The position numbers were made by a program, and so were the translations under genes. DNA of 64,000 nt from Sulfitobacter litoralis (GTDB taxonomy: Bacteria; Pseudomonadota; Alphaproteobacteria; Rhodobacterales; Rhodobacteraceae). Below the pieces are notes generated by a model that worked only from the letters and a program-made list of their open reading frames with translations, was not told the origin of the DNA and ran no database searches. Shown piece by piece: positions 15,706 through 64,000 of this stretch. Each line of letters opens with the position of its first letter. The first letter of the stretch is position 1. Location of the stretch: positions 62,001 to 126,000 of the forward strand of contig NZ_FNJD01000008.1 in the NCBI RefSeq assembly GCF_900103185.1, given 5' to 3'.

Positions 15706-15876
15706 AGGACAGGTCCACTTTCGACTGAGGGGCGTTTCGTACTGCGACGAACGTCCTTTATCGACTGCTGAAAATCAATGGAATGTCGCAAGAAACTGAG
15801 GGCTGACCCCCGTCAGGCCGGAGTGCGAGACACTGCAACGGCGCATGGCCCTAGGCGTCGGTGGCCAAAGACCGCG

Positions 15877-46446: not shown

Positions 46447-46452
46447 ACCCAG

Positions 46453-48383: not shown

Positions 48384-48404
48384 TGCGGACGGCAGGTTTT
48401 CAGG

Positions 48405-48776
48405 TTAACCGAATTTGAAAAAGCACAGTTTGTTGCCATCAAAGTCCCGGACATAGGCCCCGTAAAAACGGTCCGGGATCCGTTGCCCCGGCGCGCCTTC
48501 GTCCGCCGCGCCAAGCTCAATCGCCTTGGCGTAGAACGCGTCGACTTCTTCTTTGCTGTCCGCCGTAAACGCCACCATCACCCCGTTGCCGGGGGTAGGG
48601 GCCTCTTTGTTATAGGGCTCGCAGACCGAAATCATGGGTGTGCCGCCGCCGGTGCCAATCATGGCAATCCGGCCGCTGTCGATCAGTAGCTTGGCTCCCT
48701 TGCTTTCGAACAGGTCGCAATAGAACTGTTTTGCGCGTGCGATGTCGCTGGTGCCGACGGTGGTATAGCCGATCAT
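48405..48776 (-). CDS. VOC-family (glyoxalase-like) protein
   Basis: 123 residues with two beta-alpha-beta-beta-beta units (MIGYTTVGTSDIARAKQFYCDLF and the ending FYGAYVRDFDGNKLCFF). VOC proteins are metal enzymes or binding proteins; the specific reaction is not clear. The start at 48776 overlaps the SDR stop (ATGA) and has AAGGA 9 nt upstream. Longer upstream frames run through the SDR gene. Confidence 0.85.
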   Translation of the reverse strand: MIGYTTVGTSDIARAKQFYCDLFESKGAKLLIDSGRIAMIGTGGGTPMISVCEPYNKEAPTPGNGVMVAFTADSKEEVDAFYAKAIELGAADEGAPGQRIPDRFYGAYVRDFDGNKLCFFKFG

Positions 48777-49564
48777 GATGCATTTCCTTGCGGGTTTCTG
48801 CGGTCGCCATACATCCGGTGCAGCTTGCGCATGCCCCCGATCCAGCGGTCGTAGTTTTCGGTCTTCTTGCGCATGTATTCCAACACCTGAGGGTGGGGCA
48901 GCACAAGGAATGTCTCGTTGCGGATGGTCTCCAGACAGGCTTCGGCCACCGGTTCGGCTTCCAGCAGCCCGTCGAGCGCGGCCACAGAATCCTCGTGACC
49001 GCGGGTCATCTCGCTGCGAACCGCTTGTGGACACAACACCGATACCTTGATCCCATCATCACCATGAGACATCGCCAGCCATTCAGCCACGGCAACAGCC
49101 GCATGCTTTGTCACGCCATAAGGCGCGCAGCCGACCTGGTTCAGCAAACCCGCCGCCGAGGCAGTGTTCAACAAATAGCCGCCCCCACGTTCGGTCATGC
49201 GCGGCACCAGATGACGGGCCGCCCAGATGTGGGCCATCACGTTGATGTCCCAGATGCGCTGCCAGTCCTCGTTCGGCACTTCCATGCCGCCCGCGATCAG
49301 GATGCCCGCGTTCGAGCAGAACAGATCAATCGGACCGATGTCGTTTTCAACAGCATTGATCATATCCGCGATCTCTTGCTCTACGCCAACATTCACACCG
49401 AATGCGACGCCACCGATTTCATCGGCAACCGCCTGCGCGCCTTCTCTGTTGAGATCGACACAGACGACTTTCTTGGCCCCTTCCGCCGCAAAGCGGACGG
49501 CCATCGCCTTGCCGATGCCGCTGGCGGCACCGGTGATGACGATGATTTTATCCTTAAGTTCCAT
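48773..49564 (-). CDS. SDR-family oxidoreductase
   Basis: 263 residues. TGAASGIGKAMAVRFA cofactor site, SNAGILIAGG, and the catalytic tyrosine/lysine in YGVTKHAAV. The C-terminal tail (HPQVLEYMRKKTENYDRWIGGMRKLH) is longer than in simple SDRs and is typical of a group found with acyl-CoA degradation genes. Fifth gene-level step of a minus-strand operon running from 53750. Confidence 0.9.
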   Translation of the reverse strand: MELKDKIIVITGAASGIGKAMAVRFAAEGAKKVVCVDLNREGAQAVADEIGGVAFGVNVGVEQEIADMINAVENDIGPIDLFCSNAGILIAGGMEVPNEDWQRIWDINVMAHIWAARHLVPRMTERGGGYLLNTASAAGLLNQVGCAPYGVTKHAAVAVAEWLAMSHGDDGIKVSVLCPQAVRSEMTRGHEDSVAALDGLLEAEPVAEACLETIRNETFLVLPHPQVLEYMRKKTENYDRWIGGMRKLHRMYGDRRNPQGNAS

Positions 49565-49573
49565 AGCTGCCCC

Positions 49574-50341
49574 TCACGTCCACATGTTCGACCCGCCACA
49601 AACGGTCAGCGCCTGACCGGTCATGTAGCGGCTTGCATCGGAAGCAAGGAACACGGCGAGCCCCGCGAAATCCTCTGCCTCGCCAAGACGGCGCAGGGGG
49701 ATTTCATTCTTGATGCGGTTCTCGACTTCGGGATTGTCCCACAGCTCGCGCGCGAATTCGGTTTTCACCAGACCCGGACAGATCGCATTAAACCGCAGAC
49801 CTTTGGGCCCGAATTCAGCCGCAAGGTTGCGTACAAGGCCGATCAGCGCCAGCTTGGACATGCCATAGGTGCCCAGCATGACGGACGGTTTGAACGCCCC
49901 GATGGACGAGGTGAACGCCATCGAGCCAGACCCTTTTTCGATCATGTCGGGTGCCACCATCTGTGCCAGCCAAAGATTGGACAGCACATTGGCGTTCATC
50001 GTCTTTTCATAGGCATCATCGGGGATCTCGGACGTGGGCCCATAATAGGGGTTCACGCCGGCATTGCCGATCACGATGTCGATTTTGCCCGCCAGCTTGT
50101 GGGTCTCGTCCACCAGCGCCTGCAACTGCTCTTTGTAGCCGACATTACACGCGACGCCGAACGCCTTGCCCTTGCCAAGCGCGTTGATCTCGGCGGCGGC
50201 GGCATCCAGTTGGTCTTGCTTGCGCGCCGAGATGACGACCGTCGCGCCATGCTCGGCCAGGGCCTTGGCCATCGCCAGCCCCATGCCCTTGGAGGCGCCG
50301 GTTAACAGCGCCACCTTTCCGGTCAGATCGAATAGGGTCAT
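49574..50341 (-). CDS. SDR-family oxidoreductase (FabG-like)
   Basis: 255 residues. LTGASKGMGLAMAKALAEHG, VIGNAGVNPYYGP, catalytic YGMSKLALIG and the C-terminal SRYMTGQALTVCGGSNMW. Resembles 3-oxoacyl or secondary-alcohol dehydrogenases. Its start overlaps the ACAD11-type dehydrogenase stop by ATGA, so the two are coupled. Confidence 0.91.
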   Translation of the reverse strand: MTLFDLTGKVALLTGASKGMGLAMAKALAEHGATVVISARKQDQLDAAAAEINALGKGKAFGVACNVGYKEQLQALVDETHKLAGKIDIVIGNAGVNPYYGPTSEIPDDAYEKTMNANVLSNLWLAQMVAPDMIEKGSGSMAFTSSIGAFKPSVMLGTYGMSKLALIGLVRNLAAEFGPKGLRFNAICPGLVKTEFARELWDNPEVENRIKNEIPLRRLGEAEDFAGLAVFLASDASRYMTGQALTVCGGSNMWT

Positions 50342-51651
50342 ACGCCACCCCGCGTGCGACCTGTCGCGATCTCGTCGCGGGCGCGCGACGTGCGCAGGTT
50401 CGATTCCTGATAATCCTTGACCTCGGCGCGGGCGATCACGTGATGGTGGACTTCATCAGGGCCATCCGCAAAGCGCAGCGTACGCTGGGACGTGTACATG
50501 CCCGACAGCGGCGACCACTGCGAGATACCCGTGGCACCATGCACCTGCATCGCTTGGTCGATGATGTTACAGACTTTTTCTGGCACCATCGCCTTGATCA
50601 TGCTGACCCAGATGCGCGCTTCTTTGTTGCCCAGCACATCCATCGCCTTGGCGGCTTTCAGAACCATCAGGCGCATCGCCTCGATCTCGATCTTGGCACG
50701 AGAGATGGTTTCCATGTTCTTGCCCAGATCAATGATCTTCTTCCCAAAGGCTTCACGGCTCAGCCCGCGTTCGATCATCAGGTCCAACGCTTTTTCCGCC
50801 GACCCGATAGAGCGCATGCAGTGGTGGATACGGCCTGGCCCAAGACGAACCTGGGAAATTTCAAAGCCGCGGCCTTCGCCCCACAGAATGTTTTCCTCGG
50901 GCACGCGGACGTTGGTGAACTTGATGTGCATGTGACCGTGTGGCGCGTCGTCGTGACCAAAGACATGCATCGGGCCGACAATTTCGACACCGGGGGTGTC
51001 GATCGGCACAAGGATCTGGGACTGCTGGCGGAAGGGGTCGGCGTCGGGGGACGTTTTGACCATCGTGATCATGATCTTACAGCGTGGATCACCTGCGCCC
51101 GAAATGTAGTATTTCTCGCCGTTGATCACCCACTCGCCGTTTTCTAGCACAGCAGAAGTAGAGATGTTCTTGGCATCCGAGGACGCCATATCAGGTTCGG
51201 TCATCGCAAAGGCTGACCGGATTTCACCGGCAAGCAGGGGCTTGAGCCACTGTTCTTTTTGCTCGGGCGTGCCGATGCGTTCCAACACTTCCATGTTGCC
51301 AGTGTCAGGTGCGTTACAGTTCAGTGTTTCAGGGGCCAGCGGGCTCTTGCCCAACTCGGCTGCGATATAAGCGTAGTCGAGGTTGCTAAGGCCTTCGCCG
51401 GTTTCGGCGTTAGGCAGAAAGAAGTTCCACAGACCGGCATCACGCGCCTTTTGCTTGGCTTCTTCCAGCAGTTCCAATTGGCCCGGTGCATAGGACCAGC
51501 GGTCGGCGCGGCCTTCGCCAAGACGGAAGAATTCGTCGGTCATCGGGTCGACGTTTTCGCGGATGTGCTTGATCACGGCGGCCAATAGGGGCTTGGCTTT
51601 TTCCGACATATCAAGGTTGTTCATTCCGGCCATAGCTTCGTTATGTGACAT
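50338..51651 (-). CDS. Acyl-CoA dehydrogenase, ACAD10/ACAD11 type
   Basis: 437 residues. Strikingly like the C-terminal half of animal ACAD11: FAMTEPDMASSDAKNI, GPMHVFGHDDAPHGH, GEGRGFEISQVRLGPGRIHHCMR and LRFADGPDEVHHHVIARAE. In that family this domain converts a 4-phosphoacyl-CoA to an enoyl-CoA that enters beta-oxidation. The kinase partner is the separate gene at 35815-36846. AGGAGGC lies upstream of the start, within a run of tandem candidate ATGs. Confidence 0.93.
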   Translation of the reverse strand: MSHNEAMAGMNNLDMSEKAKPLLAAVIKHIRENVDPMTDEFFRLGEGRADRWSYAPGQLELLEEAKQKARDAGLWNFFLPNAETGEGLSNLDYAYIAAELGKSPLAPETLNCNAPDTGNMEVLERIGTPEQKEQWLKPLLAGEIRSAFAMTEPDMASSDAKNISTSAVLENGEWVINGEKYYISGAGDPRCKIMITMVKTSPDADPFRQQSQILVPIDTPGVEIVGPMHVFGHDDAPHGHMHIKFTNVRVPEENILWGEGRGFEISQVRLGPGRIHHCMRSIGSAEKALDLMIERGLSREAFGKKIIDLGKNMETISRAKIEIEAMRLMVLKAAKAMDVLGNKEARIWVSMIKAMVPEKVCNIIDQAMQVHGATGISQWSPLSGMYTSQRTLRFADGPDEVHHHVIARAEVKDYQESNLRTSRARDEIATGRTRGGV

Positions 51652-51681
51652 AGAGTGCCTCCTGGCAGTTAATTTCGGATA

Positions 51682-52461
51682 TTATTTGTTGACCCAGTTG
51701 GGTTTGCGTTTTTCGACAAAGGCGTTCACGCCTTCCTTGAAGTCTTCGGTTTTGCTAAGATCCGCGATCACTTCGCGTGAATAGGCAATGCTGTCTTGCA
51801 TCCCGTCACGGGCGTACATGTCGTTCAGCACGCGTTTCGTGGCCTTGACCGCCGACGGCGATACGCCGCACAGCTCTTCGGCCTTTTCCATCGCTTTCGC
51901 CATCAGCTGTTCCGCAGGGTAAACTGCGTTGACACAACCCATCGCCAGCGCTTCGTCGGCCATGATGGTGCGCCCTGTGAACATCAGCTCTTGCGCGGCA
52001 AGGCGCCCGATATAGCGCGACAGACGCTGTACGCCCGATGCCGCGGCAAAGAAGCCGACCTTGACTTCGGGCAGGGCGAATTTCGCCTGCTCTGACGCCA
52101 GAATAATGTCGCAGGACAATGCTGTTTCAAAACCACCGCCCATGGCGAAACCGTTGACGGCTGCGACGATGGGCTTTTCCAGATCAAAACGCGAGGACAG
52201 ACCGGCGAAGCCGCTGGCGGGCATTGTCGCCTTGGACCCGCCCGCCGCGGTAGCTTTCAGGTCGTTCCCCGCGGAGAACGCTTTGTCGCCCGCCCCTGTG
52301 AGAACGGCGACCCACAGATCCTGATCCGCTGCAAACGCGTCCCAGCAGGCGGCCATTTCATTGTGCATGTCCACATGTACGGCGTTGTACACTTCGGGGC
52401 GGTTCATGGTCACGACCAGAATGTGACCCTTTTTTTCGGTGGTGATATATTGATAGCTCAT
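51682..52461 (-). CDS. Enoyl-CoA hydratase/isomerase family protein
   Basis: 259 residues. Oxyanion-hole segment FSAGNDLK, then GFAMGGGFETALSCDII and FALPEVKVGFFAAASGVQRL, with Glu residues at both positions used for catalysis in crotonases. The pattern resembles CaiD/carnitinyl-CoA dehydratase-like members. The start overlaps the 3-hydroxyacyl-CoA dehydrogenase stop by ATGA; together they do the two steps that fused FadB/FadJ proteins do. Confidence 0.92.
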   Translation of the reverse strand: MSYQYITTEKKGHILVVTMNRPEVYNAVHVDMHNEMAACWDAFAADQDLWVAVLTGAGDKAFSAGNDLKATAAGGSKATMPASGFAGLSSRFDLEKPIVAAVNGFAMGGGFETALSCDIILASEQAKFALPEVKVGFFAAASGVQRLSRYIGRLAAQELMFTGRTIMADEALAMGCVNAVYPAEQLMAKAMEKAEELCGVSPSAVKATKRVLNDMYARDGMQDSIAYSREVIADLSKTEDFKEGVNAFVEKRKPNWVNK

Positions 52462-53750
52462 ACCTTCAGCCCTCCGGTGTCGATTTCTGTGAACTTGCCG
52501 CCATTTGCGGCCAAATCGCGTAGCAGCTCAGCGGGCGCGAATTCGGGGTCTTGGGCGCCTAGCTTTTCCATCACGTCCAGCACGGCTTGCGCACCGACCA
52601 TGTCGCCATGGAACATCGGGCCGCCCTTATCGGCAGGCCAGCCATAGCCGTTCAGCCAGACCACATCGATGTCAGACGGGCGCTGCGCCTTGTTCTCTTC
52701 GAGGATTTTGACAGCCTCGTTGATCATCGGATAAATGCAGATTTCGATGATCTCGTCTTGCGACATCTGGCTTGTCTCGGCACCTGTGATGTCCTTAATC
52801 ACTTTCGCCACAACATCGGACGGGATCGGGCGACGCGATTCGTCATAGTCGTAGAAGCCCGCTTGGGTCTTTTGGCCACGGCGGTCCATTTCACACAGCG
52901 CATCGCGGATCGGGTTTTCGGTATTGGCCCCTTTGGACCAGCCGATATCCAGACCGGCCAGATCGGACATCTGGAACGGCCCCATCTTGAAGCCAAAGGC
53001 GTTCAGCGCGGCATCCACATCCCACGGCATCAAGCCCTGTTGCAGCAGCTTGTTCGCCTGTTTCTGGCGTGCGAACAAAATGCGGTTGCCGACAAAACCG
53101 GGGCAAACGCCAACCAGCACGGCAATCTTGTTGATCTTGGCCGCCAAATCCATCGAGGTCGCGACCACGTCATCGGCAGTATGTTTCGCGCGCACAATTT
53201 CGAGCAATTTCATTACGTTGGCAGGCGAGAAAAAGTGCAGTCCGATGACGTCTTCGGGGCGGCTGGTCATCGCTGCGATTTCGTCGATGTTCAACGCCGA
53301 GGTGTTCGTCGCAAGGATCGCGCCGGGTTTCATCACGCGGTCCAGCTCGGTGAAGATCTTGCGCTTCAGCTCCATGTCTTCGAACACGGCTTCGATCACC
53401 AGATCACAATCGGCCAAGGCAGCAAGTTCCAGCTTGCCGTCGAAACGGTCCATCCGGGCTTCGACTTCGTCTTGCGGGAAACGGCCCTTGTCACTGCTGC
53501 GCTGGTAGTTGCCGCGCACAACCTTCAACCCGCGATCCAGTGCTACTTGCGTGGTCTCGACGATGGTGACGGGGATGCCCGCGGTGGCAAAGTTCATCGC
53601 AATGCCACCGCCCATCGTGCCCGCGCCGATGATGCCTACGGATTTGATCTCGCGCTGTTTGGTGTTGGCGGGCAGGTCCGGGACCTCCCACGCGGCTTTG
53701 CCGGCAGCACCGATATAGGCACCAATTTCTGCGTCGGTTGGGGTGTTCAT
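52458..53750 (-). CDS. 3-hydroxyacyl-CoA dehydrogenase
   Basis: 430 residues. NAD-binding [17 protein letters not shown] near residue 40, catalytic His in [13 protein letters not shown], and two C-terminal 3HCDH domains ([41 protein letters not shown]). The N-terminal 35 residues look like a remnant linker of multifunctional FadJ-type proteins. It oxidises (S)-3-hydroxyacyl-CoA. It is the second gene of the operon after the acyl-CoA ligase. Confidence 0.94.
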
Positions 53751-53783
53751 AGTCTTCCTTTCTTCCGGCCCGGTTGGTGGGCC

Positions 53784-55475
53784 TTATGTGTCCAGACAGG
53801 CCGCGCGGATCGCACGGCGGTCAATCTTGTCGGTGGCACCACGGGTCAAAGGACCGTCCTGGCACCACAGTTTTTCGGGTATCTTGAATTTGGCCAGCCG
53901 CCCGTCGAGGTGCGCCGCCATATCCGCCTGCGTTAACGGCTTGCCATCGCGGGTCTGGACAGAGGCCCCGACGACTTCGCCCAAACGCGGATCAGGGACA
54001 GAGAACGCGCAGGCCTCGATCACATCGGGATGCGTGTGCAACGCGCCCTCGACATCCAGACACGCGATGTTTTCGCCGCCCCGGATGATGATGTTCTTCT
54101 TGCGATCAAGGATGGTGATATAGCCTTCGGCGTCGATCACACCCAGATCGCCGGTGCGCAGCCAGCCGTCTTGCATCGTCTCTTCGGTGGCTTCCGGCTT
54201 GTTCAGATAGCAGCGCATGTTGGCGGGGCTTTTGACGGTAATCTCGCCCAATTCGCCCTGTAGCACATCGTTGCCCTTGTCATCCAGAAACCGGATATCT
54301 TGCAGCGGCGGGTGCAGCTTGCCTGCGGCGTCGGGGCGTTTGTTGTATTCTTCGCCGACCATCCCGATACCAAGGGCGTTGGTCTCGGTCATGCCCCAGC
54401 CGGTCGCGATATCAGCGGCGGGGAATTGTCCCTTAAGCTGCGCCACCTGGGCCGCAGGGCGTTTCGCCCCGCCAGCCCCAAGCCAGCTGAGCGTCGGCAG
54501 CGTCTCGCCCATGCGTTTCGCGGCCTCAAGCAGGTCAGCAGATTGCGTCGGCACACCTAGAAAACGGGTCACGCCTTCGCGGTTGATCACACGCACCGCT
54601 TCTTCGGCATCCCATTTGTGCAGCAGCGAAATCTTGGCACCGGCTGGCAGGCTCAGCAAAAACAGCGGATGCGTCGCAGTGACGTGGAATAGCGGCGTGA
54701 CGATTAACCCCGACGGGCGCGGCGCGGGCGGCGCACCGGGTTCAGGGGGCGTGACCAGCGGGGCGGCGACCGCCTGCAACAGCCAGCTGAACACCGCGCT
54801 GAGCGCACCACGGTGGGTCTGCACCACACCTTTCGGCTTGCCCGTCGTGCCAGAGGAATACATCACCGCAAAATCATCGTCAGTGTCCAGGTCGACACCC
54901 TCGGGCGCAGTATCGGCCATACCTTGCATCACCGCCGATAGCTTGTGCGGGCCCATGTCTTCGCCATCACGCACGCCGATCAGACGCAGCCCTAGGTCGT
55001 CGACCAGCGGCATCATCCGTTCAAAGCGGGGACCATCAGCAAACACCGTCTTGGCACCGCTGTCTTGCAGCGCATAGTCGAGCTCTTCGGTCGTCCACCA
55101 CGCGTTCACGAACACCACCACCGCACCAGCCGAGGCAACGGCAAGGGTTAACATCAACAGTTCGGGATAGTTGCGCATCGCGATGCCGACACGGTCGCCG
55201 GTCTTGATCCCAAGCGTGTCGCGCAGCCCGTTGGCAATACGATTCACGTCGGCGACAAATTCATCATAGGTCCAGCGTTCGTCCTGATAGACCAGAAACT
55301 CCGCCGCCCCGTTATCATGAATCTCGCGGCTCGCCTGAACGAGGCCTCCAAGGGTTTTGGGAATGTTTTTGAATGTCTTATAGGTGACGCCACGAATGTT
55401 GCTCTCGGCTACCTCGAACGTCGGGTTTGTCGAAACCACGTGGCGAATGGCTTCCTCGGGGGTCATTGCGGTCAT
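53784..55475 (-). CDS. Acyl-CoA ligase (AMP-binding family)
   Basis: 563 residues. AMP-forming motifs: YSSGTTGKPKGVVQTH, TGWGMTET near residue 365, GDLGVIDAEGY, and the C-terminal hinge DRKKNIIIRGGENI with the catalytic lysine near the end (TRGATDKIDRR). It would activate the free acid substrate at the start of the leftward operon. I place the start at 55475 because its ATG overlaps the stop of a 15-codon ORF that has a strong ribosome site; a GTG at 55553 would add 26 residues. Substrate unknown. Confidence 0.92.
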   Translation of the reverse strand: MTAMTPEEAIRHVVSTNPTFEVAESNIRGVTYKTFKNIPKTLGGLVQASREIHDNGAAEFLVYQDERWTYDEFVADVNRIANGLRDTLGIKTGDRVGIAMRNYPELLMLTLAVASAGAVVVFVNAWWTTEELDYALQDSGAKTVFADGPRFERMMPLVDDLGLRLIGVRDGEDMGPHKLSAVMQGMADTAPEGVDLDTDDDFAVMYSSGTTGKPKGVVQTHRGALSAVFSWLLQAVAAPLVTPPEPGAPPAPRPSGLIVTPLFHVTATHPLFLLSLPAGAKISLLHKWDAEEAVRVINREGVTRFLGVPTQSADLLEAAKRMGETLPTLSWLGAGGAKRPAAQVAQLKGQFPAADIATGWGMTETNALGIGMVGEEYNKRPDAAGKLHPPLQDIRFLDDKGNDVLQGELGEITVKSPANMRCYLNKPEATEETMQDGWLRTGDLGVIDAEGYITILDRKKNIIIRGGENIACLDVEGALHTHPDVIEACAFSVPDPRLGEVVGASVQTRDGKPLTQADMAAHLDGRLAKFKIPEKLWCQDGPLTRGATDKIDRRAIRAACLDT

Positions 55476-55519
55476 ATGCACCGGCCCGCAGACAGCATAG
55501 ATACAGATAGTGTGGCCAT
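55472..55519 (-). CDS. Possible 15-residue leader peptide coupled to the acyl-CoA ligase gene
   Basis: ATG at 55519 after AAGGGAGGACGAA, the best ribosome site in this region, reading MATLSVSMLSAGRCI and ending TGA inside ATGA of the ligase start. A translated leader could raise or regulate ligase expression through coupling. Product function is unknown; it may be no more than a ribosome-loading device. Confidence 0.35.
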   Translation of the reverse strand: MATLSVSMLSAGRCI

Positions 55520-55625
55520 TTCGTCCTCCCTTATCGAGCCTGTTGCCGGACACTCCTCCACGATTGTCCGCGACTCTGATGTCTGCAGCCTAATCGTTAA
55601 AATCCAAACTGCAATACCGCATGAT

Positions 55626-55638
55626 GGAACAATGTTCC
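55626..55638. promoter_or_regulatory. Palindromic operator upstream of the acyl-CoA ligase operon
   Basis: GGAACAATGTTCC: perfect 6-bp arms around one central base, about 110 bp upstream of the leader ORF. The form fits a TetR-type operator. No TetR gene is in the window, so the regulator would be encoded elsewhere. Confidence 0.45.
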
Positions 55639-55810
55639 GCAAACTGACGTTTGACAGGTTTTTACGCGCACCAAGGCCCCCCGCTGACGCGGCTCTATAT
55701 CTTGGCGAAAACTGACCATGAATGCACAGGTAAGAAAAGCCTTTCTTTTGGCGAAACCGAAAGAAGGGCGCCAGGGCACCTGCGATGTCGTTGAAACATG
55801 GCGTCACTTG

Positions 55811-55835
55811 GGCGCAGCGGTGCGGGTGCTGCGCC
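55811..55835 (-). terminator. Hairpin after the enamidase gene
   Basis: GGCGCAGC and GCTGCGCC form a perfect 8-bp stem with a 9-nt loop, 15 bp beyond the enamidase stop on the minus strand. No T-run directly follows. Confidence 0.5.
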
Positions 55836-55850
55836 TGATATCGCGCGTGG

Positions 55851-57041
55851 TTACGTCCCAACGCTGCCGCTGATCAGCTCCGGCAGGCGGGTCGCAGGCG
55901 GGGTGTTGCGGCTGCGCAAGCTGCGGACCACGCCATCAATCACCGTCATACCCACACCCGGCAAATTGCCAAGTTGGACGGATTCGAGCATGTTCTTACC
56001 GGGCGCATGCTGTGCCTGATCCATCAAGACGAAATCCGCACATTTGCCGACCTCGATCAATCCGGTATCGAGCTTGCGCTGCCGCGCGGTGTTGCCATTG
56101 GCAAAGCAGAACGCGATCTCGGCCGGGACATTCCCCAGCGACGACAGCATCGCGACCATCCGCATGATCCCCAAAGGTTGCACGCCGGACCCTGCCGGAC
56201 CGTCGGTGCCAAGGATCAACTGGTCCAATTTGCCAAGCTCGCGCGCGGTATTCAGCGTCAGCAACGCGGCGCGCTCATTTCCGTTGTGCACAATCTCGAG
56301 CGCGGCTTGGCAGCCTTCGCACAGGCAGATGATCTGGTCGTCGGGCAGGGCGGAGTGTCCGCCATTGATGTGCCCGACCACATCTGTCCCCGTCTCGAGC
56401 ACCATATCGGCGTCGATCAACCCCGATCCGGGGATCGAAGGGCCGCCGGTGTGGATCGTGCTTTGCATCCCGTATTTGCGCGCCCATCCCACCATTTGTG
56501 CCGCCGTTTTGCCGTCCTTGACGGTGCCCAGACCGACCTCCCCCAGCAAGGTCACGCCGGCCTTTGCCATCTCGGCAAAGTCTTCTTCCACCATGCCGTG
56601 CTCAATAACGGGGGCTCCTGCGTGCACCTTGACGCCAGAGGGGCGGAAATTTTCGTACCAGCGCTGCGACGCAATCGCCATCGCCTTGAGGCCGACGATA
56701 TCCTTGGGGCGGCCCGGCATATGGACCTCGCCGGCTGAAATGAGCGTCGTGACACCGCCGTGTAGCGTTGAATCGATCCATCCCAACTGCTGCTGACGCG
56801 GCGTATAATCTCCCACCACCGGATGCACATGGCTGTCGATCAGGCCGGGGGCCAGTGCCGCGCCATGGGCGTCGACCTCTGTCGTAGCCCCCTCGCAATC
56901 CATATCCGTGGCATAGCCCCACTGCGTGATCTTGCCGTCGATCGCGATCAGACAATCCCCGTCGGCTATGGGCTCTTCCATCTTGCCGGTCAGGATCATC
57001 CCGATGTTACGGATCACGAGTTTTGCAGAGGTGTCTGACAT
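55851..57041 (-). CDS. Enamidase-like amidohydrolase (nicotinate pathway type)
   Basis: 396 residues. Close in pattern to the enamidase of Eubacterium barkeri: GLIDSHVHPVVGDYTPRQ (H71-x-H73), HGGVTTLISAGEVHMPGRPKD, GVKVHAGAPVIEHGM, GEVGLGTVKDG, HTGGPSIPGSG and VVGHINGG. That enzyme opens the ring of 6-oxo-tetrahydronicotinate, hydrolysing the enamide to ammonium and 2-formylglutarate. The start at 57041 has AAAGG about 9 nt upstream; an ATG at 57056 lacks one. It is divergent from the reductase and hydroxylase genes and shares their regulatory region. Confidence 0.88.
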   Translation of the reverse strand: MSDTSAKLVIRNIGMILTGKMEEPIADGDCLIAIDGKITQWGYATDMDCEGATTEVDAHGAALAPGLIDSHVHPVVGDYTPRQQQLGWIDSTLHGGVTTLISAGEVHMPGRPKDIVGLKAMAIASQRWYENFRPSGVKVHAGAPVIEHGMVEEDFAEMAKAGVTLLGEVGLGTVKDGKTAAQMVGWARKYGMQSTIHTGGPSIPGSGLIDADMVLETGTDVVGHINGGHSALPDDQIICLCEGCQAALEIVHNGNERAALLTLNTARELGKLDQLILGTDGPAGSGVQPLGIMRMVAMLSSLGNVPAEIAFCFANGNTARQRKLDTGLIEVGKCADFVLMDQAQHAPGKNMLESVQLGNLPGVGMTVIDGVVRSLRSRNTPPATRLPELISGSVGT

Positions 57042-57114
57042 GAGATCGCCTTTCAAGCCGCATCAGTTTCATTTGAACGCTAACAGAAAAAATCAACCGA
57101 TCAAGATGAAACGC

Positions 57115-57143
57115 TTGACAGAATATCATTCGTGTACAAACAA
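57115..57143 (+). promoter_or_regulatory. Promoter element and operator copy 1 of the N-heterocycle cluster
   Basis: TTGACA at 57115-57120, followed 7 bp later by ATTCGTGTACAAACAA (57128-57143). The 16-bp site recurs before the FAD-subunit gene with two differences. Its core TTCGTGTACAAA is a near-palindrome of the kind bound by GntR/FCD regulators (T-N-GT-N2-AC-N-A). Located between the divergent enamidase and ferredoxin reductase genes. Confidence 0.5.
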
Positions 57144-57173
57144 TAATGAAGATCTAGCCGATAAGGACAGCCC

Positions 57174-57980
57174 ATGGACACCGCAGCTGCTATACCCCAA
57201 GCCTTTCCGATCCCCGCCGGTGTCTTTGCCGAAACGGTGACGCAAGTGCAGCACTATACCGACAGCCTGTTCCGCTTTCGCATCACCCGCGATCCATCCT
57301 TTCGGTTCCGGTCCGGCGAGTTTGTGATGATCGGATTACCAAATGCCGAAAAACCAGTGTTCAGAGCCTATTCTATCGCGTCGCCGTCTTGGGACGAGGG
57401 GGTGGAATTCTACTCTATCAAAGTACCTGACGGGCCGCTGACCCAGCATCTGCAAAAGCTCAAGGTCGGCGACACCGTGTTAATGCGGCGCAAGCCGACG
57501 GGGACGCTGGTGAATGACGCCCTGCTGCCCGGAAAACGGCTGTGGATGTTTGCGACAGGCACCGGCATCGCCCCGTTCGCCTCTGTCATCCGCGACCCCG
57601 AGACATATAAAAAGTTCGACGATCTGATCCTGTGTCACACCTGCCGCACCGCCGGAGAGTTGACCTATGGCCGAGAACTGGTTGCCAGCCTCAAGGCCGA
57701 TCCGCTGGTCGGCGAATTGGCGCAGCGATTGACCTTGTATGACACGCTGACCCGCGAGCCGTGGCCGCGCGAGGGGCGGCAAACCGATCTGATGACGTCG
57801 GGCAAGATGTTCCGCGACCTTGGCCTGCCTCCGATCCACCCGGACATCGACCGCGGGATGATCTGCGGGTCGATGGCGATGCTGAACGACACCAAGGTCG
57901 CGCTTGAATCCTTTGGCCTGGTCGAGGGGGCCAACAACCGCCCTGCCAGTTTTGTGGTCGAAAAAGCCTTTGTCGGCTGA
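57174..57980 (+). CDS. Ferredoxin--NADP reductase
   Basis: 268 residues, bacterial FNR type. FAD-binding RAYSIASP at 64-71, NADP-binding GTGIAPFASVIRDP and the C-terminal ICGSMAMLNDTK, ending in VEKAFVG. It moves electrons between NADPH and ferredoxin or flavodoxin. In this cluster it could supply reduced ferredoxin to the 6-hydroxynicotinate-reductase-like enzyme. AAGGA lies 7 nt before the ATG. Confidence 0.93.
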   Translation: MDTAAAIPQAFPIPAGVFAETVTQVQHYTDSLFRFRITRDPSFRFRSGEFVMIGLPNAEKPVFRAYSIASPSWDEGVEFYSIKVPDGPLTQHLQKLKVGDTVLMRRKPTGTLVNDALLPGKRLWMFATGTGIAPFASVIRDPETYKKFDDLILCHTCRTAGELTYGRELVASLKADPLVGELAQRLTLYDTLTREPWPREGRQTDLMTSGKMFRDLGLPPIHPDIDRGMICGSMAMLNDTKVALESFGLVEGANNRPASFVVEKAFVG

Positions 57981-57996
57981 TGGCATGCGAAATGAT

Positions 57997-58040
57997 TTGA
58001 CAGATGGGGCTTAGCCGAACTTCTATTCGTATACCAACAA
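57997..58040 (+). promoter_or_regulatory. Promoter element and operator copy 2 of the N-heterocycle cluster
   Basis: TTGACA at 57997-58002 and ATTCGTATACCAACAA at 58025-58040. The latter matches the site at 57128 in 14 of 16 bases, in the same orientation. Its core TTCGTATACCAA is nearly symmetric. It overlaps the expected -10 position, so the bound protein would repress the hydroxylase operon. Confidence 0.5.
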
Positions 58041-58066
58041 GTTTCCCCGAAGCAAAAGGTGACCAA

Positions 58067-58903
58067 ATGAGCTACCTGACCGCGACGACGCTCGATCAAG
58101 CACTTAGCGCGCTGGCCGCAGGGCCGGTGTCGATCATCGCGGGGGGCACCGATTGGTTCCCGACGCACGGCGACCGTCCGGTGACCGGTGACCTGCTGGA
58201 CATTACCCGCCTGCCAGAACTGCGCGGGGTCAGCCAAACCGCCAAGGGCTGGCGCATCGGCGCTGCGACGACATGGACGGACATCATCCGCGCCGACCTG
58301 CCCGCCGCCTTTGACGGGCTGAAACTGGCGGCACGCGACGTCGGGTCGATCCAGATCCAGAACGCAGGCACCATTGCCGGCAACCTGTGCAACGCTTCGC
58401 CCGCCGCCGACGGCGTGCCGCCCCTCTTGACGCTGGAGGCCACGGTTGAACTGCGCAGCGCGAACGGCACACGGGTGTTGCCTTTGTCGCAGTTCCTGCA
58501 GGGCGTGCGCCAGACCGAGCGCGCCCAGAACGAGCTGTTGTCGGCGGTGCATATCCCGACCCCGCCCGTCAACAGCCACAGCAGTTTCGTCAAGCTAGGG
58601 GCGCGGAAATATCTGGTGATTTCTATCTGCATGGTCGCGGTTCTGGCAGAGGTCAACGACGATACGCTGACCGATATCCGCATCGCCATCGGCGCGGCCT
58701 CGCCCGTCGCACAGCGGCTGACCACGCTCGAAGATCATTTGCGGGGCTGCGCGCTTGGCGACGTGCAAAACCGGATGACGGCTGATCTGATACAATCGCT
58801 CACGCCAATCACGGATGTGCGCGCCAGTGCCGACTACCGCCTTGCCGCCAGCGCCACATTGATCCGCCGCGCTGTCACGCTTGCTTTGAAAGGGGTCATC
58901 TGA
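58067..58903 (+). CDS. FAD subunit of xanthine-dehydrogenase-type hydroxylase
   Basis: 278 residues. FAD-binding motifs IIAGGTDWFP near residue 24 and NAGTIAGNLCNASPAADGVPPLL near residue 102, then the CO-dehydrogenase flavoprotein C-terminal domain. The medium subunit of a cytoplasmic molybdenum hydroxylase. The start at 58067 follows AAAGGTGA; upstream codons overlap the operator. Its stop overlaps the next gene by one base (TGATG). Confidence 0.93.
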   Translation: MSYLTATTLDQALSALAAGPVSIIAGGTDWFPTHGDRPVTGDLLDITRLPELRGVSQTAKGWRIGAATTWTDIIRADLPAAFDGLKLAARDVGSIQIQNAGTIAGNLCNASPAADGVPPLLTLEATVELRSANGTRVLPLSQFLQGVRQTERAQNELLSAVHIPTPPVNSHSSFVKLGARKYLVISICMVAVLAEVNDDTLTDIRIAIGAASPVAQRLTTLEDHLRGCALGDVQNRMTADLIQSLTPITDVRASADYRLAASATLIRRAVTLALKGVI

Positions 58904-61650
58904 TGGACAAACCGACCATGACCGAGGTGACGTCGTTTACCCTGAACGGTGACATTGCGCAGGTCGAACCCCTGCCGGGGGAGCGGCTTTCTTACGCTTT
59001 GCGCGAACGACTGGACCGCAAGGATGTCAAGATCGGCTGCAACGCCGGCGACTGCGGGGCCTGCACTGTGCTGGTCGACGGGGCCCCTGTCTGCGCCTGT
59101 TTGATGCCCGTGCAACAGGCCGTGGGGCGACACGTCGAGACGCTGGCAGGGCTGGTAAAAACTGACCGTGACGCGCAGGCGTTGATGCAAAGCTTTCAAC
59201 ATCACCAAGCGGCGCAATGCGGTATTTGCACGCCGGGGATGATGGTCTCTGCCGTGGCACTATTGCGCGCGACCCCGCAACCGGATGCCGCGCAGGTGCA
59301 AGACGCGCTTGGCGGGGTGCTGTGTCGCTGCACCGGATATCGCAAGATTATCGACGCAGTGGTGGATGCCCACGCCGCCGCCACGCTGACTGTCGCATCA
59401 TCCGACCTTGGCCAGGCCGCACGGCGGCTGGACGGGTTGGCCAAGGTCGATGGATCAGAGACGTTCGGCGATGACGTTGCCCCGGCAGGTGCGCTGGTTG
59501 CGCGAGCCGTCCGGTCGCCGCATCCCTCGGCAACATTTACCTTTGATGACCTCGAGGCTTGGCGCGTGTCCCACCCCGGCCTCCATTACGTCCTGACCGC
59601 AAGTGATGTGCCCGGTCTGAATGCCTTTGGTGTGATCCCCGGTTTCATCGACCAGCCCGTTTTTGCCGTGGACCACGTGCGGTTTCGGGGCGAGGCGGTC
59701 GCCTGCATCGTGGGCGAGGCAGAGACGGTGAACCCCCTTGATCTGGCCACCTTCCCGATCAACTGGACCCCGCAGACAGCGCTTTCGGACACGACGGAGG
59801 CAACCGGCCCCGACGCGCCGCAACTGTTCGAGGATCGCAAACGCAATATAATGTGCGGCGGTTTCGTGCAGTGCGGCGATGTGGATGCCGCCCTTGATGC
59901 TGCCGATGCCACGGTCGAGGCGCAGTACACCACCAGTTTTGTCGAACACGGGTATATCGAACCGGAAGCCGGCTTTGCCGAAGTGGTGGGCGGGCGCATC
60001 CATGTTCACGCCTGCACCCAAGCCCCCGGTATGGACCGCGAGGCGCTGGCCGCGATCCTTGACCGTCCGATGGCTGATATTCGCATCGTACCGACGGCAG
60101 TGGGTGGGGGCTTCGGGTCGAAGATTGATCTGTCATTGCAGCCCTTCATCGCCATTGCTGCACTGAAAACGGGTCGCCCCGTACGTATGACCTATAGCCG
60201 CGTCGAGACGATGCAATCGACCACCAAACGCCACCCCGCGCAGATCACAATCAAGGTCGGGGCCAAGGCCGATGGGGCGCTTTCGGGGCTACGCTTTGAC
60301 GGGGATTTCAACACAGGTGCTTATGCCAGTTGGGGTCCCACTGTGGCCAACCGCGTGCCGGTCCATGCCTCTGGCCCTTATTATATCCCCGACTACCGCG
60401 CCCGCAGCAGGGCGGTGCACACCCATTGCCCACCCGCAGGCGCCTTTCGCGGGTTTGGCGTGCCGCAATCAGCCATCGCTCAGGAAACCGCCTTTGATCT
60501 GCTGGCAGAAAAGCTGGGGCTCGATCCGCTCGATTTTCGCCTGAAGAACGCATTGGCGGATGGGGTGCCCACGGTCTGCGGTCAGGTCTTTGATCAAGGG
60601 GTCGGCATCGCCCCCTGTCTTGAAGCGCTGCGCCCTGCGTGGGAGGATGCAAAAGCCGAATGCGCGCAGTTCAACGCGCAGAATGATACGGTGAAACGCG
60701 GCGTTGGGATCGCGGGGGCATGGTACGGCTGCGGCAATACCTCACTGCCGAACCCGTCGACGATTCTGGCGGGCGTGCGGGCCGATGGTACAGTCGTTTT
60801 ACACCAAGGCGCGATGGACATCGGGCAGGGGTCGAACACGGTCATCCCGCAAATCTTTGCCAAAGCACTTGGCCTGTCGGTTGAAGGCATCGAAATCCTC
60901 GGCGGCGATACGGATATCACGCCGGACGCAGGCAAGACTTCTGCCTCGCGGCAGACCTTTGTGTCGGGCAATGCCGCGCTAAAAACAGGCGAGGCGCTGC
61001 GGGCCGAGATTCTGCGCCAGGTCAACGCGGGTCCCACAGCACAGATTACGGCGCAAGGCGGGCGGGTGACGGTCACCGACGCGGGCCATGTGCAACAGCT
61101 TGATCTGTCACGGCTGCCTGCGGACGACGATGGCTATGTGCTGCGCGCCGAAGAAAGCTATGATCCGCCGGTGAAGCCGTTAGATGAAAACGGGCAAGGC
61201 GTGCCCTATGCGCAATTCGGTTACGCCGCGCATCTGGTGGTGGTCGAGGTGGATATCGCCCTTGGTCTGTGCCGCCCGCTGCGCTTTGTCGCCGCCCATG
61301 ACGTGGGCCGTGCGATCAACCCGTTGCTGGTCGAGGGACAGGTGCAGGGTGGCATCGCCCAAGGGCTTGGTATGGCGCTGATGGAAGAGTATATCCCCGG
61401 CCGCACCGAAAACCTGCATGACTATCTGATGCCGACCATCGGCGATGTCCCCCCGATCGAAACGCTGATCCTGGAGGTGGCAGATGCCCACGGGCCCTAC
61501 GGCGCGAAAGGTCTGGGGGAACATGTGCTGATCCCCACCGCCCCCGCGATCCTGAATGCCATATACCATGCCACCGGTGCGCGCGTGACGCAAACGCCGG
61601 CCACGCCCACGCGCCTGCGCGCCGCCCTAAAGGAGGCCGGACATGCCTGA
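58903..61650 (+). CDS. Fused 2Fe-2S/molybdopterin subunit of xanthine-dehydrogenase-type hydroxylase
   Basis: 915 residues in one chain. Residues 1-160 carry both 2Fe-2S clusters (C46, C51, C54 and a later Cys; C106, C109, C141, C143). From about 170 it is the molybdopterin large subunit, with VGGGFGSKIDL, PAGAFRGFGVPQ and the active-site Glu in GAKGLGEHV. No export signal, so it is cytoplasmic, unlike the IorAB-type enzyme at 24 kb. The context suggests hydroxylation of nicotinate or a related N-heterocycle, equivalent to nicotinate dehydrogenase; the substrate is inferred. Confidence 0.93.
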   Translation: MDKPTMTEVTSFTLNGDIAQVEPLPGERLSYALRERLDRKDVKIGCNAGDCGACTVLVDGAPVCACLMPVQQAVGRHVETLAGLVKTDRDAQALMQSFQHHQAAQCGICTPGMMVSAVALLRATPQPDAAQVQDALGGVLCRCTGYRKIIDAVVDAHAAATLTVASSDLGQAARRLDGLAKVDGSETFGDDVAPAGALVARAVRSPHPSATFTFDDLEAWRVSHPGLHYVLTASDVPGLNAFGVIPGFIDQPVFAVDHVRFRGEAVACIVGEAETVNPLDLATFPINWTPQTALSDTTEATGPDAPQLFEDRKRNIMCGGFVQCGDVDAALDAADATVEAQYTTSFVEHGYIEPEAGFAEVVGGRIHVHACTQAPGMDREALAAILDRPMADIRIVPTAVGGGFGSKIDLSLQPFIAIAALKTGRPVRMTYSRVETMQSTTKRHPAQITIKVGAKADGALSGLRFDGDFNTGAYASWGPTVANRVPVHASGPYYIPDYRARSRAVHTHCPPAGAFRGFGVPQSAIAQETAFDLLAEKLGLDPLDFRLKNALADGVPTVCGQVFDQGVGIAPCLEALRPAWEDAKAECAQFNAQNDTVKRGVGIAGAWYGCGNTSLPNPSTILAGVRADGTVVLHQGAMDIGQGSNTVIPQIFAKALGLSVEGIEILGGDTDITPDAGKTSASRQTFVSGNAALKTGEALRAEILRQVNAGPTAQITAQGGRVTVTDAGHVQQLDLSRLPADDDGYVLRAEESYDPPVKPLDENGQGVPYAQFGYAAHLVVVEVDIALGLCRPLRFVAAHDVGRAINPLLVEGQVQGGIAQGLGMALMEEYIPGRTENLHDYLMPTIGDVPPIETLILEVADAHGPYGAKGLGEHVLIPTAPAILNAIYHATGARVTQTPATPTRLRAALKEAGHA

Positions 61651-63130
61651 TGACCTGCGCGACCCCAAGCCCGAAAAAATCCGCTGCGATGCCTGTCCGG
61701 TGATGTGTTTCATCGCCGACGGCAAATCCGGTGCCTGCGACCGCTACGCCAATCACGCGGGCGAGCTGGTGCGGCTTGACCCGCTGACCGTAATCCAGTC
61801 AGGGGCCAAGGCCGTGGCCTTTCTGGATCAGGGCGACAATGCGCAGGATTGGGACGGCGACGTGATTCAGGGCGGGCGCGATTTCGTGACGGCCGTGGGG
61901 GCGGGGACCACCTACCCTGACTATAAACCCGCGCCCTTCATCGTCAGCCAAGAGGTCGAGGGCGTGGACATGATCACTGTCGTGACCGAAGGCATTTTTT
62001 CGTACTGCGGGGTCAAGGTGAAGATCGACACCGACCGCCACATCGGCGACGAACGCGCCGTGGTGCGGGCAGGCGGAGAAGCGATCGGCCACGTCATGAC
62101 CTCGGAATACGGGTCCAAGATGCTTTCTTTGGGCGGGGTCGAACACCTGACCGGCGGCTCCAAGAAAGAAGGCCGCGTCACCTGTGACGCGCTGCTGCGC
62201 CTGTGCAACCGTGAACCCGTCGAGGTCACAATCGACGGCGGCGTCACCATGGTGGTTGAGGCGGGCAAAGCGCCAATTATCAACGGCACGCCAGAAAAGC
62301 TGATGCGGGTCGGGTGCGGGTCGGCGACCATCGGGATGTTTGCCAAACAATGGTACGGGCATGTGGACGAGGTGGTGGTCGTCGATGATCACATCACAGG
62401 CGTGCTGACCGAACACGAGGCCGGCAAGGGGCTGGATATGACCCCCTCTGGCATCCGCGTGAACGGGCGGCGGTCGACGCCGGGGCGGTATTTTCAAGTC
62501 GCGGACCCCGGTACCGGGTGGGGTGGCACCGACGTCGAAGACCCGTTGACCATCCTGCGCGACGCCGATCCGAAACGCGCTTGGCCCGGGTTGCGTCTGC
62601 TGATGATCTCTACTACGGGCGAGCAATGGGCGTATTTCACGTTGGATGATGAACTTGTCCCTCAACCCGCCGAGATCACGCCTGAGCTGTTGGTCGTCGC
62701 CGACCGCATCGCCGAGAATTGCGAACCCTCGCTCTGTTCGGTGCTGTTCATGGGGGGGGCCGGCGGCAGCCTGCGCGCGGGCGTAACGGAAAACCCCGTG
62801 CGTCTGACGCGGTCGGTCAAGGAATCCCTGACCCATGTGTCCTGCGGCGGCGCCGAGGCCTATGTCTGGCCGGGAGGCGGCATAACCGTCATGGTGGATG
62901 TCATGGATATGCCCACAAACTCCTTTGGCTATGTGCCCACGCCTGCGCTGGTCGCCCCCATCGAATTCACCCTGCGCCGCGAGGATTACGGCACGCTTGG
63001 CGGGCATATGGAGCATATCCAGCCCGTGCGTGATGTGGTCACCGATGACGTACGGCGGGTGGCACAACAGCTGTTACAACCAGATCCGAACGCGCGGGAA
63101 AACTATGGCTGGTCGAAGGACGAGACATGA
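61643..63130 (+). CDS. 6-hydroxynicotinate reductase-like iron-sulfur protein
   Basis: 495 residues, about 54 kDa. A four-cysteine motif C15-x2-C18-x3-C22-x9-C32 at the N-terminus fits a 4Fe-4S cluster. Conserved Gly-rich loops follow (GCGSATIGMF, MGGAGGSLRAG). Size, motif and neighbours match Hnr, the ferredoxin-dependent enzyme that reduces 6-hydroxynicotinate to the 6-oxo-tetrahydro form, which enamidase then opens. Strong AAGGAGG site; the start overlaps the hydroxylase gene by 8 bp. The identification rests on recalled family pattern plus context. Confidence 0.8.
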   Translation: MPDDLRDPKPEKIRCDACPVMCFIADGKSGACDRYANHAGELVRLDPLTVIQSGAKAVAFLDQGDNAQDWDGDVIQGGRDFVTAVGAGTTYPDYKPAPFIVSQEVEGVDMITVVTEGIFSYCGVKVKIDTDRHIGDERAVVRAGGEAIGHVMTSEYGSKMLSLGGVEHLTGGSKKEGRVTCDALLRLCNREPVEVTIDGGVTMVVEAGKAPIINGTPEKLMRVGCGSATIGMFAKQWYGHVDEVVVVDDHITGVLTEHEAGKGLDMTPSGIRVNGRRSTPGRYFQVADPGTGWGGTDVEDPLTILRDADPKRAWPGLRLLMISTTGEQWAYFTLDDELVPQPAEITPELLVVADRIAENCEPSLCSVLFMGGAGGSLRAGVTENPVRLTRSVKESLTHVSCGGAEAYVWPGGGITVMVDVMDMPTNSFGYVPTPALVAPIEFTLRREDYGTLGGHMEHIQPVRDVVTDDVRRVAQQLLQPDPNARENYGWSKDET

Positions 63131-63975
63131 CGGCACAGGCGGCGTATCTATCCGGCGGCAGGCTGCATCTGTCCCACGGCCCGATTGACCTGATCATCGG
63201 GGCAGATGGCGCGCGCGATGTGGCGTTTCAGGCGGCGTTTGATCGCTTTAGCACTGTTCTATCTGAGCTAACCGCAGAGCTGCCCCTGCTGCGCCGCCCT
63301 GTCGACAGCAAACCAAAAGGCAAGATCGCCCGCGCGATGTACCGCGCCGCCTTGCCCTATGCCGACGGGCTGACCACGCCGATGATCTGCGTCGCCGGTG
63401 CCGTCGCGGCAGAGGTATTGTCGGCCATGGTGGATGCCTCCAATCTGACCCGCGCCTATGTGAACAACGGTGGCGATATCGCGCTGCATCTGACCGAGGG
63501 CGCGCGCTTTGACGTGGGTATTGCGGGGCTGGACGGGCGGTCGCTTGGCAGCGTCACGATCCGCAGCAGTGACCCCATTCGCGGCATCGCCACCAGCGGG
63601 CAGGGCGGGCGTAGCCAGTCCTTGGGCATCGCCGACAGTGTGACCGTGCTGGCCCGATCCGCCGCGATGGCCGATGCGGCGGCGACGAGGCTGGGAAATG
63701 CCGTTGATCTGCCCGCCCATCCCGCGATCCGGCGTAGCCCCGCCAACCAGTTGCACGAAGACAGCGACCTTGGTGCGGCCCCAGTGGTTACCCATGTCGG
63801 GCCGCTCTCCCCTGCCGATGCTAACCACGCCCTCAATGCAGGCGCGACAGCGGCGCAGGGTTTGCGCGACCGTGGCCTCATCTCTGCCGCTGCACTGTTC
63901 CTGCGCGACCAACATACTGTCATCGGCCTGCCCGAAACTCTGAAATCCCTAACGAAAGCCCCCGAACATGCCTGA
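63127..63975 (+). CDS. UPF0280 family protein (ApbE-like fold)
   Basis: 282 residues. The AGAVAAEVLSAM, YVNNGGDIALHL and GIATSGQGGRSQSLGIADSVTV segments are the UPF0280 pattern, which belongs to the ApbE-like superfamily of flavin transferases. It overlaps the reductase-like gene by ATGA, so the two are produced together. A role in flavin handling or maturation of that enzyme is a reasonable guess but unproven. Confidence 0.85.
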   Translation: MTAQAAYLSGGRLHLSHGPIDLIIGADGARDVAFQAAFDRFSTVLSELTAELPLLRRPVDSKPKGKIARAMYRAALPYADGLTTPMICVAGAVAAEVLSAMVDASNLTRAYVNNGGDIALHLTEGARFDVGIAGLDGRSLGSVTIRSSDPIRGIATSGQGGRSQSLGIADSVTVLARSAAMADAAATRLGNAVDLPAHPAIRRSPANQLHEDSDLGAAPVVTHVGPLSPADANHALNAGATAAQGLRDRGLISAAALFLRDQHTVIGLPETLKSLTKAPEHA

Positions 63976-64000
63976 GGTTATGACCCGCAAAATCGTCACC
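63968..64000 (+). CDS. Start of a downstream gene, possibly AA_synth (PF06684) family (truncated)
   Basis: Eleven codons, MPEVMTRKIVT, at the window edge, overlapping the UPF0280 gene by 8 bp. The R-K-I-V start resembles AA_synth/DUF1185 proteins. Too short to be sure. Confidence 0.35.
   Translation, partial: MPEVMTRKIVT

Follow-up and report, generated by a model that had tools for sequence, protein, structure and literature searches.

Gene content of the locus

We examined a 64,000-nucleotide stretch of Sulfitobacter litoralis DNA (contig NZ_FNJD01000008.1, positions 62,001 to 126,000; hereafter the window), in which six genes lie at positions 55851–63975. An earlier, sequence-only reading had named five of them, reporting enamidase-like, 6-hydroxynicotinate reductase (Hnr)-like, and molybdenum-hydroxylase genes clustered with a ferredoxin reductase. 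All are long open reading frames (ORFs), and domain scans, matches to solved structures, and orthologue annotation agree with the protein families it assigned. The sixth gene, which encodes a UPF0280 protein (63127–63975), was absent from that gene list. The cluster, which is probably plasmid-borne, very likely encodes the known aerobic reductive route of nicotinate degradation, and UPF0280 looks like a partner that Hnr cannot do without. The genes, in window coordinates, are as follows.

55851..57056, minus strand: enamidase (Ena)-like amidohydrolase, 401 amino acids from a TTG start; similarity to 2vun and metal-ligand motifs
57174..57980, plus strand: ferredoxin/flavodoxin-NADP reductase-type protein (Fpr); FAD_binding_6 and NAD_binding_1 domains
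58004..58903, plus strand: molybdenum hydroxylase FAD subunit (CoxM/XdhB type); domain matches
58903..61650, plus strand: fused subunit with two [2Fe-2S] domains and a molybdopterin domain (CoxS-CoxL, here CoxSL), proposed nicotinate 6-hydroxylase; domain matches
61643..63130, plus strand: Hnr, 495 amino acids, with an N-terminal CxxCxxxCx9C iron-sulfur-type motif; orthologue annotation
63127..63975, plus strand: UPF0280/COG2122 protein with an ApbE-like fold; family match and genomic partnership with Hnr

Comparison with the S. pontiacus annotation indicates that the in-frame ATG at 57041 is the likelier Ena start (giving 396 amino acids) and that the FAD subunit probably starts at 58067. From the FAD subunit onward successive ORFs overlap by 1–8 bases, which places the UPF0280 gene in the same run and makes the arrangement operon-like. 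The next 10 kb of the contig (locus L006) hold two DUF1185/PF06684 genes, a MarR gene on the opposite strand, a Rieske oxygenase gene, and an ABC transporter of the branched-chain-amino-acid type. Because window positions 45000–64000 share 89% DNA identity over 100% of their length with six plasmid records from S. pontiacus and close Sulfitobacter strains, the contig is probably a plasmid.

Identity of the enzymes

The Ena homologue has the Eubacterium barkeri enamidase itself (2vun) as its best solved match, over its full length and with an E-value of 5e-105, the next solved structure being at 1.4e-6; 170 of 383 residues are identical (44.4%). It retains an HxH pair, the Glu of GEVGLGT, two further His residues, and the Asp of G(T/N)DxPxG, which we take to be the binuclear metal ligands. 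Ena is predicted to hydrolyze 1,4,5,6-tetrahydro-6-oxonicotinate (THON) to 2-formylglutarate and ammonia.

The molybdenum hydroxylase has a complete xanthine-oxidase-family domain set, comprising the FAD subunit, two 2Fe-2S domains, MoCoBD_1, and MoCoBD_2. The E. barkeri enzyme (3hrd) differs in being divided among a large (A), a medium (B), and a small (D) chain, which the S. litoralis protein matches in turn; the split of the molybdenum protein between chains A and B was not seen here, where one protein fuses the molybdenum subunit with the Fe-S domain.

Hnr, which as an enzyme of this kind would be expected to carry Fe-S clusters and a covalent flavin, had no Pfam or NCBIfam match and no credible sequence match among solved structures. 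The motif CxxCxxxCx9C occurs in 89 of 89 Hnr sequences. Of 48 members, 34 gave a weak signal of the glycine-cleavage T-protein C-terminal domain (best E 0.00088), which is not relied on, and a fold assignment was rejected given a model of mean pLDDT 74.6 whose best solved-structure match had an E-value of 0.13. Identification of the protein as Hnr comes from orthologue annotation (in 26 plasmid records, 17 orthologues are named 6-hydroxynicotinate reductase, three are hypothetical, and six are unannotated there) and from a published Bradyrhizobiaceae orthologue reported to be 42% identical to the E. barkeri enzyme (PMC3511419). In one alphaproteobacterium (G023, locus L176) Hnr consists of two adjacent pieces in different frames that join near residue 242, owing either to a frameshift or to an error in sequencing.

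Genomic pairing of Hnr with UPF0280

Among 192 Alphaproteobacteria, Hnr was found in 32 genomes and UPF0280 in the same 32, the two genes being neighbors on a single contig each time (in G072, UPF0280 is split at the contig end). Among 299 Pseudomonadota, Hnr was found in 26 genomes and UPF0280 in 28, namely those 26 plus two with marginal matches (E 1.7e-4 and 6.4e-4, 19–21 bits); the two samples share four Hnr-positive genomes, that of S. litoralis included. In each of the 26 pairs the two genes share contig and strand; the gap between them measures −3 to 116 bases, except in one pair, where a MarR gene occupies a gap of 552 bases (L175). The UPF0280 queries were the S. litoralis protein and a nine-row alignment of its close kin, so that more distant COG2122 proteins could be missed.

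The neighborhoods of Hnr genes were surveyed at 88 loci, made up of the best 80 of at least 595 scan matches and 8 of the 26 plasmid records with Hnr; the S. litoralis locus and a Hydrogenophaga locus (L007) are excluded from all survey counts. At 79 of the 85 loci that extend at least 900 bases rightward, the UPF0280 gene begins no more than 600 bases past Hnr and in the same orientation. A MarR gene sits between the two at L009, and UPF0280 lies 5–10 kb upstream of Hnr at L068, L078, L086, and L089. It was not found at 4 of the 88 loci (L048, L057, L065, and L074): L048 and L065 end right after Hnr, the L074 contig begins 3.3 kb before Hnr, and the stretch examined for L057 begins inside a gene order that in its relative L068 holds UPF0280.

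A subset of 64 loci is fully flanked, with 8 kb on either side of Hnr. UPF0280 is present in 63 of these and a DUF1185 gene likewise in 63; a molybdenum hydroxylase of the CoxSL or NicB type is present in 60 (CoxSL in 52, NicB type in 10), two NicB-type matches (L028, L032) being merely 27–28% identical and adjoining CoxSL. MarR follows in 50, Ena in 42, a transporter protein in 38, Fpr in 23, a Rieske gene in 16, and HyuA in 12. Conservation of these neighbors across the 64 loci argues that the cluster is not a chance assembly. In a second set, 40 of 53 other Hnr genomes from the Alphaproteobacteria and Pseudomonadota scans, UPF0280 lies within the cluster in 40 of 40; these genomes were preselected as holding both genes, so this figure is not independent evidence of co-occurrence.

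Plasmids tell a similar story, with UPF0280 in 27 records and Hnr in 26. The 27th is that of Hydrogenophaga sp. BPS33 (L007), with UPF0280 at four places in the record and IS1071 upstream. The stretch just before UPF0280 resembles Hnr residues 434–459 (E 0.05, weak by itself), and this apparent C-terminal remnant suggests that the Hnr gene there may have been cut by IS1071. Positions 4987–6040 and 15796–16849 of this locus belong to a series of repeats that include IS1071 copies; both contain a UPF0280 gene, and in both the short Hnr-like stretch (E 0.05) precedes it. DUF1185 was also considered as an Hnr-specific partner and was rejected, DUF1185a matching 386 plasmid records versus the 26 with Hnr.

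We have good confidence in the view that UPF0280 acts as a dedicated helper of Hnr.

Apparently interchangeable ring-opening enzymes and hydroxylases

Ena and HyuA were found together in none of the 88 loci of the first set and none of the 40 of the second. Of the 12 second-set loci with HyuA, 8 also hold HyuB. The one HyuA protein tested (from L011) has caprolactamase alpha as its best curated match, at 474 bits versus a cut-off of 1000, and this likeness fits a role for HyuAB as a putative ATP-dependent opener of the same lactam. Eight genomes with HyuAB loci are among the best 80 matches. Seven lack an Ena orthologue, two of these giving partial Ena matches only (E 3.6e-4 and 8.9e-4), and the eighth (L076) has a 58% Ena match that contains a TGA. 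Ten fully flanked loci have a hydroxylase and no opener nearby; five were tested, and all five genomes have Ena elsewhere (67–82% identity). These patterns suggest that the enamidase is exchangeable for a caprolactamase-like HyuAB, ring opening being possible with or without ATP.

A DUF1185b paralogue is present in every Ena cluster, 48 of 48 in the first set and 12 of 12 in the second (all 60). Of the HyuA clusters, 8 of 12 in the first set have it and 0 of 12 in the second. The best BLAST score was the sole basis for telling paralogues a and b apart, and some genomes may be present in both sets. The hydroxylase also varies. Most loci have CoxM/CoxSL, and 9 of 88 and 7 of 40 have a NicAB-type enzyme; the occurrence of Hnr clusters with either one is the main reason to think that both hydroxylases act on nicotinate.

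The literature covered, to which most subscription papers do not belong, yielded no statement of the Hnr/UPF0280 pairing, the mutual exclusivity of Ena and HyuAB, or the association of DUF1185 with Ena.

A probable case of a known reductive route in an aerobe

Sulfitobacter is an aerobic genus, and the sequence-only reading had found a reductive, E. barkeri-like route unexpected in an apparent aerobe and had raised the possibility of a new downstream branch. Its pathway outline and protein families proved right; the novelty did not hold. The route through THON was first described from E. barkeri and subsequently from the aerobe Azorhizobium caulinodans, and a cluster that encodes the first three steps together with a putative transporter and two conserved uncharacterized proteins is reported to be common to A. 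caulinodans, Bradyrhizobiaceae, and other proteobacteria (PMC3511419). One paper groups A. caulinodans with E. barkeri and terms the route anaerobic (PMC9304392); nicotinate catabolism in A. caulinodans is reported from aerobic cultures and was not measurable in microaerobic ones (PMC3357923). The S. litoralis locus has the same combination of hydroxylase, Hnr, Ena, and transporter together with conserved unknown proteins; the published cluster likewise includes two conserved proteins, for which the available text names no family (PMC3511419).

The S. litoralis cluster is thus a further example of the known aerobic reductive nicotinate route. With that route published and Hnr relatives widespread (at least 590 confirmed among at least 595 pattern matches in an alignment scan of the genome collection), the cluster is not new in kind, and its main value is to document the route in marine roseobacters. 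As judged by title, none of the papers found on nicotinate degradation in roseobacters, or on homarine or trigonelline with Rieske enzymes, concerns this cluster.

As we infer the scheme, the CoxM/CoxSL hydroxylase would make 6-hydroxynicotinate from nicotinate; Hnr, supplied by Fpr as its probable electron donor, would reduce the ring to THON; and Ena would open the THON lactam to give ammonia and 2-formylglutarate, with UPF0280 serving as a dedicated Hnr helper, probably in cofactor maturation. The carbon would then pass via glutarate and glutaryl-CoA into central metabolism, in keeping with Azorhizobium, where nicotinate carbon is reported to pass via glutarate to TCA-cycle intermediates (PMC3511419). 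A candidate for the glutaryl-CoA step is present in the S. litoralis genome: the protein at L096:1366-2637, whose gene has a divergent LysR-type ORF beside it, matches the glutaryl-CoA dehydrogenases 3gnc (1.3e-185) and 1siq, presumably the human enzyme (2.8e-167). Given the glutarate exit of Azorhizobium and this glutaryl-CoA dehydrogenase-like gene, no new branch need be invoked.

Several observations weigh against this scheme. The best solved matches of CoxSL are aldehyde oxidoreductases and 4-hydroxybenzoyl-CoA reductase, nicotinate dehydrogenase chains ranking lower, so that similarity does not fix the hydroxylase substrate. The first solved match of the L096 protein is 4w9u, named an acyl-CoA dehydrogenase only; against the GlutCoADH_Des model of NCBIfam the protein reaches 214 of 470 bits and is outscored by three of the 11 matches to that model in its own genome, from which it was picked by reading sequences and among which it alone was compared with solved structures. 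Nor was a gene for conversion of 2-formylglutarate to glutarate identified.

The CoxSL matches, which do not point to nicotinate in particular, leave room for a different substrate. The cluster might degrade another N-heterocycle, for instance an acid of the picolinate or isonicotinate type, or trigonelline or another N-methylated betaine, with a VanA-type Rieske oxygenase first removing a methyl group before the same hydroxylation, reduction, and ring opening. Such a gene is at hand (L006:11735-12802; VanA_C domain, matching dicamba O-demethylase at 7.8e-37), and one lies near Hnr in 16 of the 64 fully flanked loci; the other 48 lack it. Moreover, Hnr orthologues of 63–72% identity occur in nine loci with NicAB-type hydroxylase genes, and the Bradyrhizobiaceae strain SG-6C, which has an Hnr cluster, is reported to grow on nicotinate (PMC3511419). 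The pairing of related Hnr proteins with this molybdenum hydroxylase or with the NicAB type makes another heterocycle less likely, and we regard one as improbable, though worth keeping in view. The Rieske oxygenase, just past the end of the window, might for its part be an N-demethylase that feeds the cluster, for example from trigonelline.

Far less probable still, to the point that we give it hardly any weight, is a full E. barkeri-type fermentation in which hydroxymethylglutarate dehydrogenase, the B12-dependent mutase, and the other later enzymes are encoded elsewhere in the genome. The first three reactions do share their chemistry with the E. barkeri route. On the other side stand the aerobic habit of the genus and the glutaryl-CoA dehydrogenase-like protein. 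Also, unlike in E. barkeri, no gene for a later fermentative step was recognized near the cluster: neither a 2-(hydroxymethyl)glutarate dehydrogenase nor a methyleneglutarate mutase was recognized among the ten scanned window proteins, the ORFs of positions 48000–64000, and the 10 kb downstream, no genome-wide search having been made. Nicotinate degradation by the aerobic reductive route accordingly remains our preferred reading.

Possible functions of UPF0280

The predicted model of UPF0280 (pLDDT 92.3) has as its top fold match the Desulfovibrio protein 2o34 (E 1.9e-10), which it also matches in sequence (1.8e-7) and which, as DVU1097, presumably belongs to COG2122. Of 29 fold matches with E-values up to 0.001, two are 2o34 chains and the other 27 are all ApbE, FmnB, or Ftp (FmnB at 1.2e-5, ApbE at 8.3e-5), with modest TM-scores of 0.32–0.51 and large rmsd. 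UPF0280 thus shares a fold with these flavin transferases, and a weak profile alignment (E 0.068) lines up its TSG motif and the Asp of AD-AAT with those of ApbE. This comparison with ApbE is based on two proteins (L145 and L146), the usable ones among eight loci inspected of ten from the ApbE family.

The likeness stops short of the catalytic residues. ApbE is reported to use a Ser-His-Asp triad in which His257 is the general base and its replacement lowers activity (PMC12052999). In the same weak alignment this histidine falls immediately C-terminal to the UPF0280 GRS motif, where the aligned stretch is short. The segment that follows TSG could be read in 71 of 87 UPF0280 sequences, and 28 of those 71 contain a His. 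It is confined to two sites, immediately preceding GRS in 18 and immediately following it in 18, so that no His is conserved. The ApbE target motif Dxx[ST]GA[ST], read as [ST]GA[ST], was likewise absent from all 89 Hnr sequences. Together these two findings are evidence against ordinary ApbE chemistry. Flavin attachment is attractive all the same, since the fold is ApbE-like and the E. barkeri Hnr is said to carry a covalently bound flavin (reportedly from work by Alhapel in 2006). We hypothesize that UPF0280 may function in flavin maturation of Hnr.

Beyond the flavin transferases, the nearest relative with a known setting is the COG2122 protein of Desulfovibrio and methanogens, to which 2o34 as top fold match links UPF0280. 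In Desulfovibrio, homocysteine synthesis is reported to depend on COG2122 together with DUF39; the homology of COG2122 to ApbE seems not to reach the flavin-binding region, and a persulfide proposal is cited (PMC5764234). A role for UPF0280 in homocysteine synthesis here was rejected, the partner there, DUF39, having no match in the S. litoralis genome or in any of the 299 Pseudomonadota.

Two views of UPF0280 therefore have to be weighed. It could be a maturation enzyme that attaches or activates the flavin or an Fe-S cluster of Hnr by non-ApbE chemistry, COG2122 proteins in general partnering unclassified reductive enzymes and the rest of the pathway being modular; we advance this tentatively and at somewhat less than even confidence. 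Alternatively, instead of attaching flavin it could assist in sulfur or Fe-S chemistry, as has been proposed for COG2122 together with DUF39, a serious possibility that likewise falls a little short of an even chance. The unconserved histidine and the missing target motif speak for a sulfur or Fe-S role, as does the invariant cysteine motif of Hnr. The absence of DUF39, the fold matches that apart from 2o34 are all flavin transferases, and the covalent flavin ascribed to E. barkeri Hnr speak against it.

If the first of these views is correct, COG2122 pairs with Hnr here and with a DUF39 system in anaerobes, and the one COG2122/Hnr pair could help to explain both Hnr and the Desulfovibrio homocysteine system. 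Because this COG2122 type is present in every sampled Pseudomonadota genome with Hnr, and otherwise gave only two marginal matches, the pair offers a clean test of an unassigned family.

Other neighboring genes

Upstream of the cluster, positions 47328–55553 of the window hold a block of genes for an amidohydrolase, a VOC protein, two SDRs, an acyl-CoA dehydrogenase, an enoyl-CoA hydratase, a 3-hydroxyacyl-CoA dehydrogenase, and an AMP ligase. These fatty-acyl-type genes were considered as downstream steps of the pathway and rejected, because S. mediterraneus carries the block and Hnr on different records. Matches of at least 50% identity to seven of the proteins (AMP ligase to amidohydrolase) are confined to L002 and the S. 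litoralis genome itself. Since S. mediterraneus keeps it apart from Hnr, the block has the appearance of a catabolic module in its own right, of undefined substrate.

A protein of 457–487 amino acids (L003:6737-8200 and L011:14897-16270) is encoded near Hnr in 15 of the 64 fully flanked loci. A Pfam scan, made for the L003 copy only, gave no match; several copies lie beside a branched-chain-type transporter.

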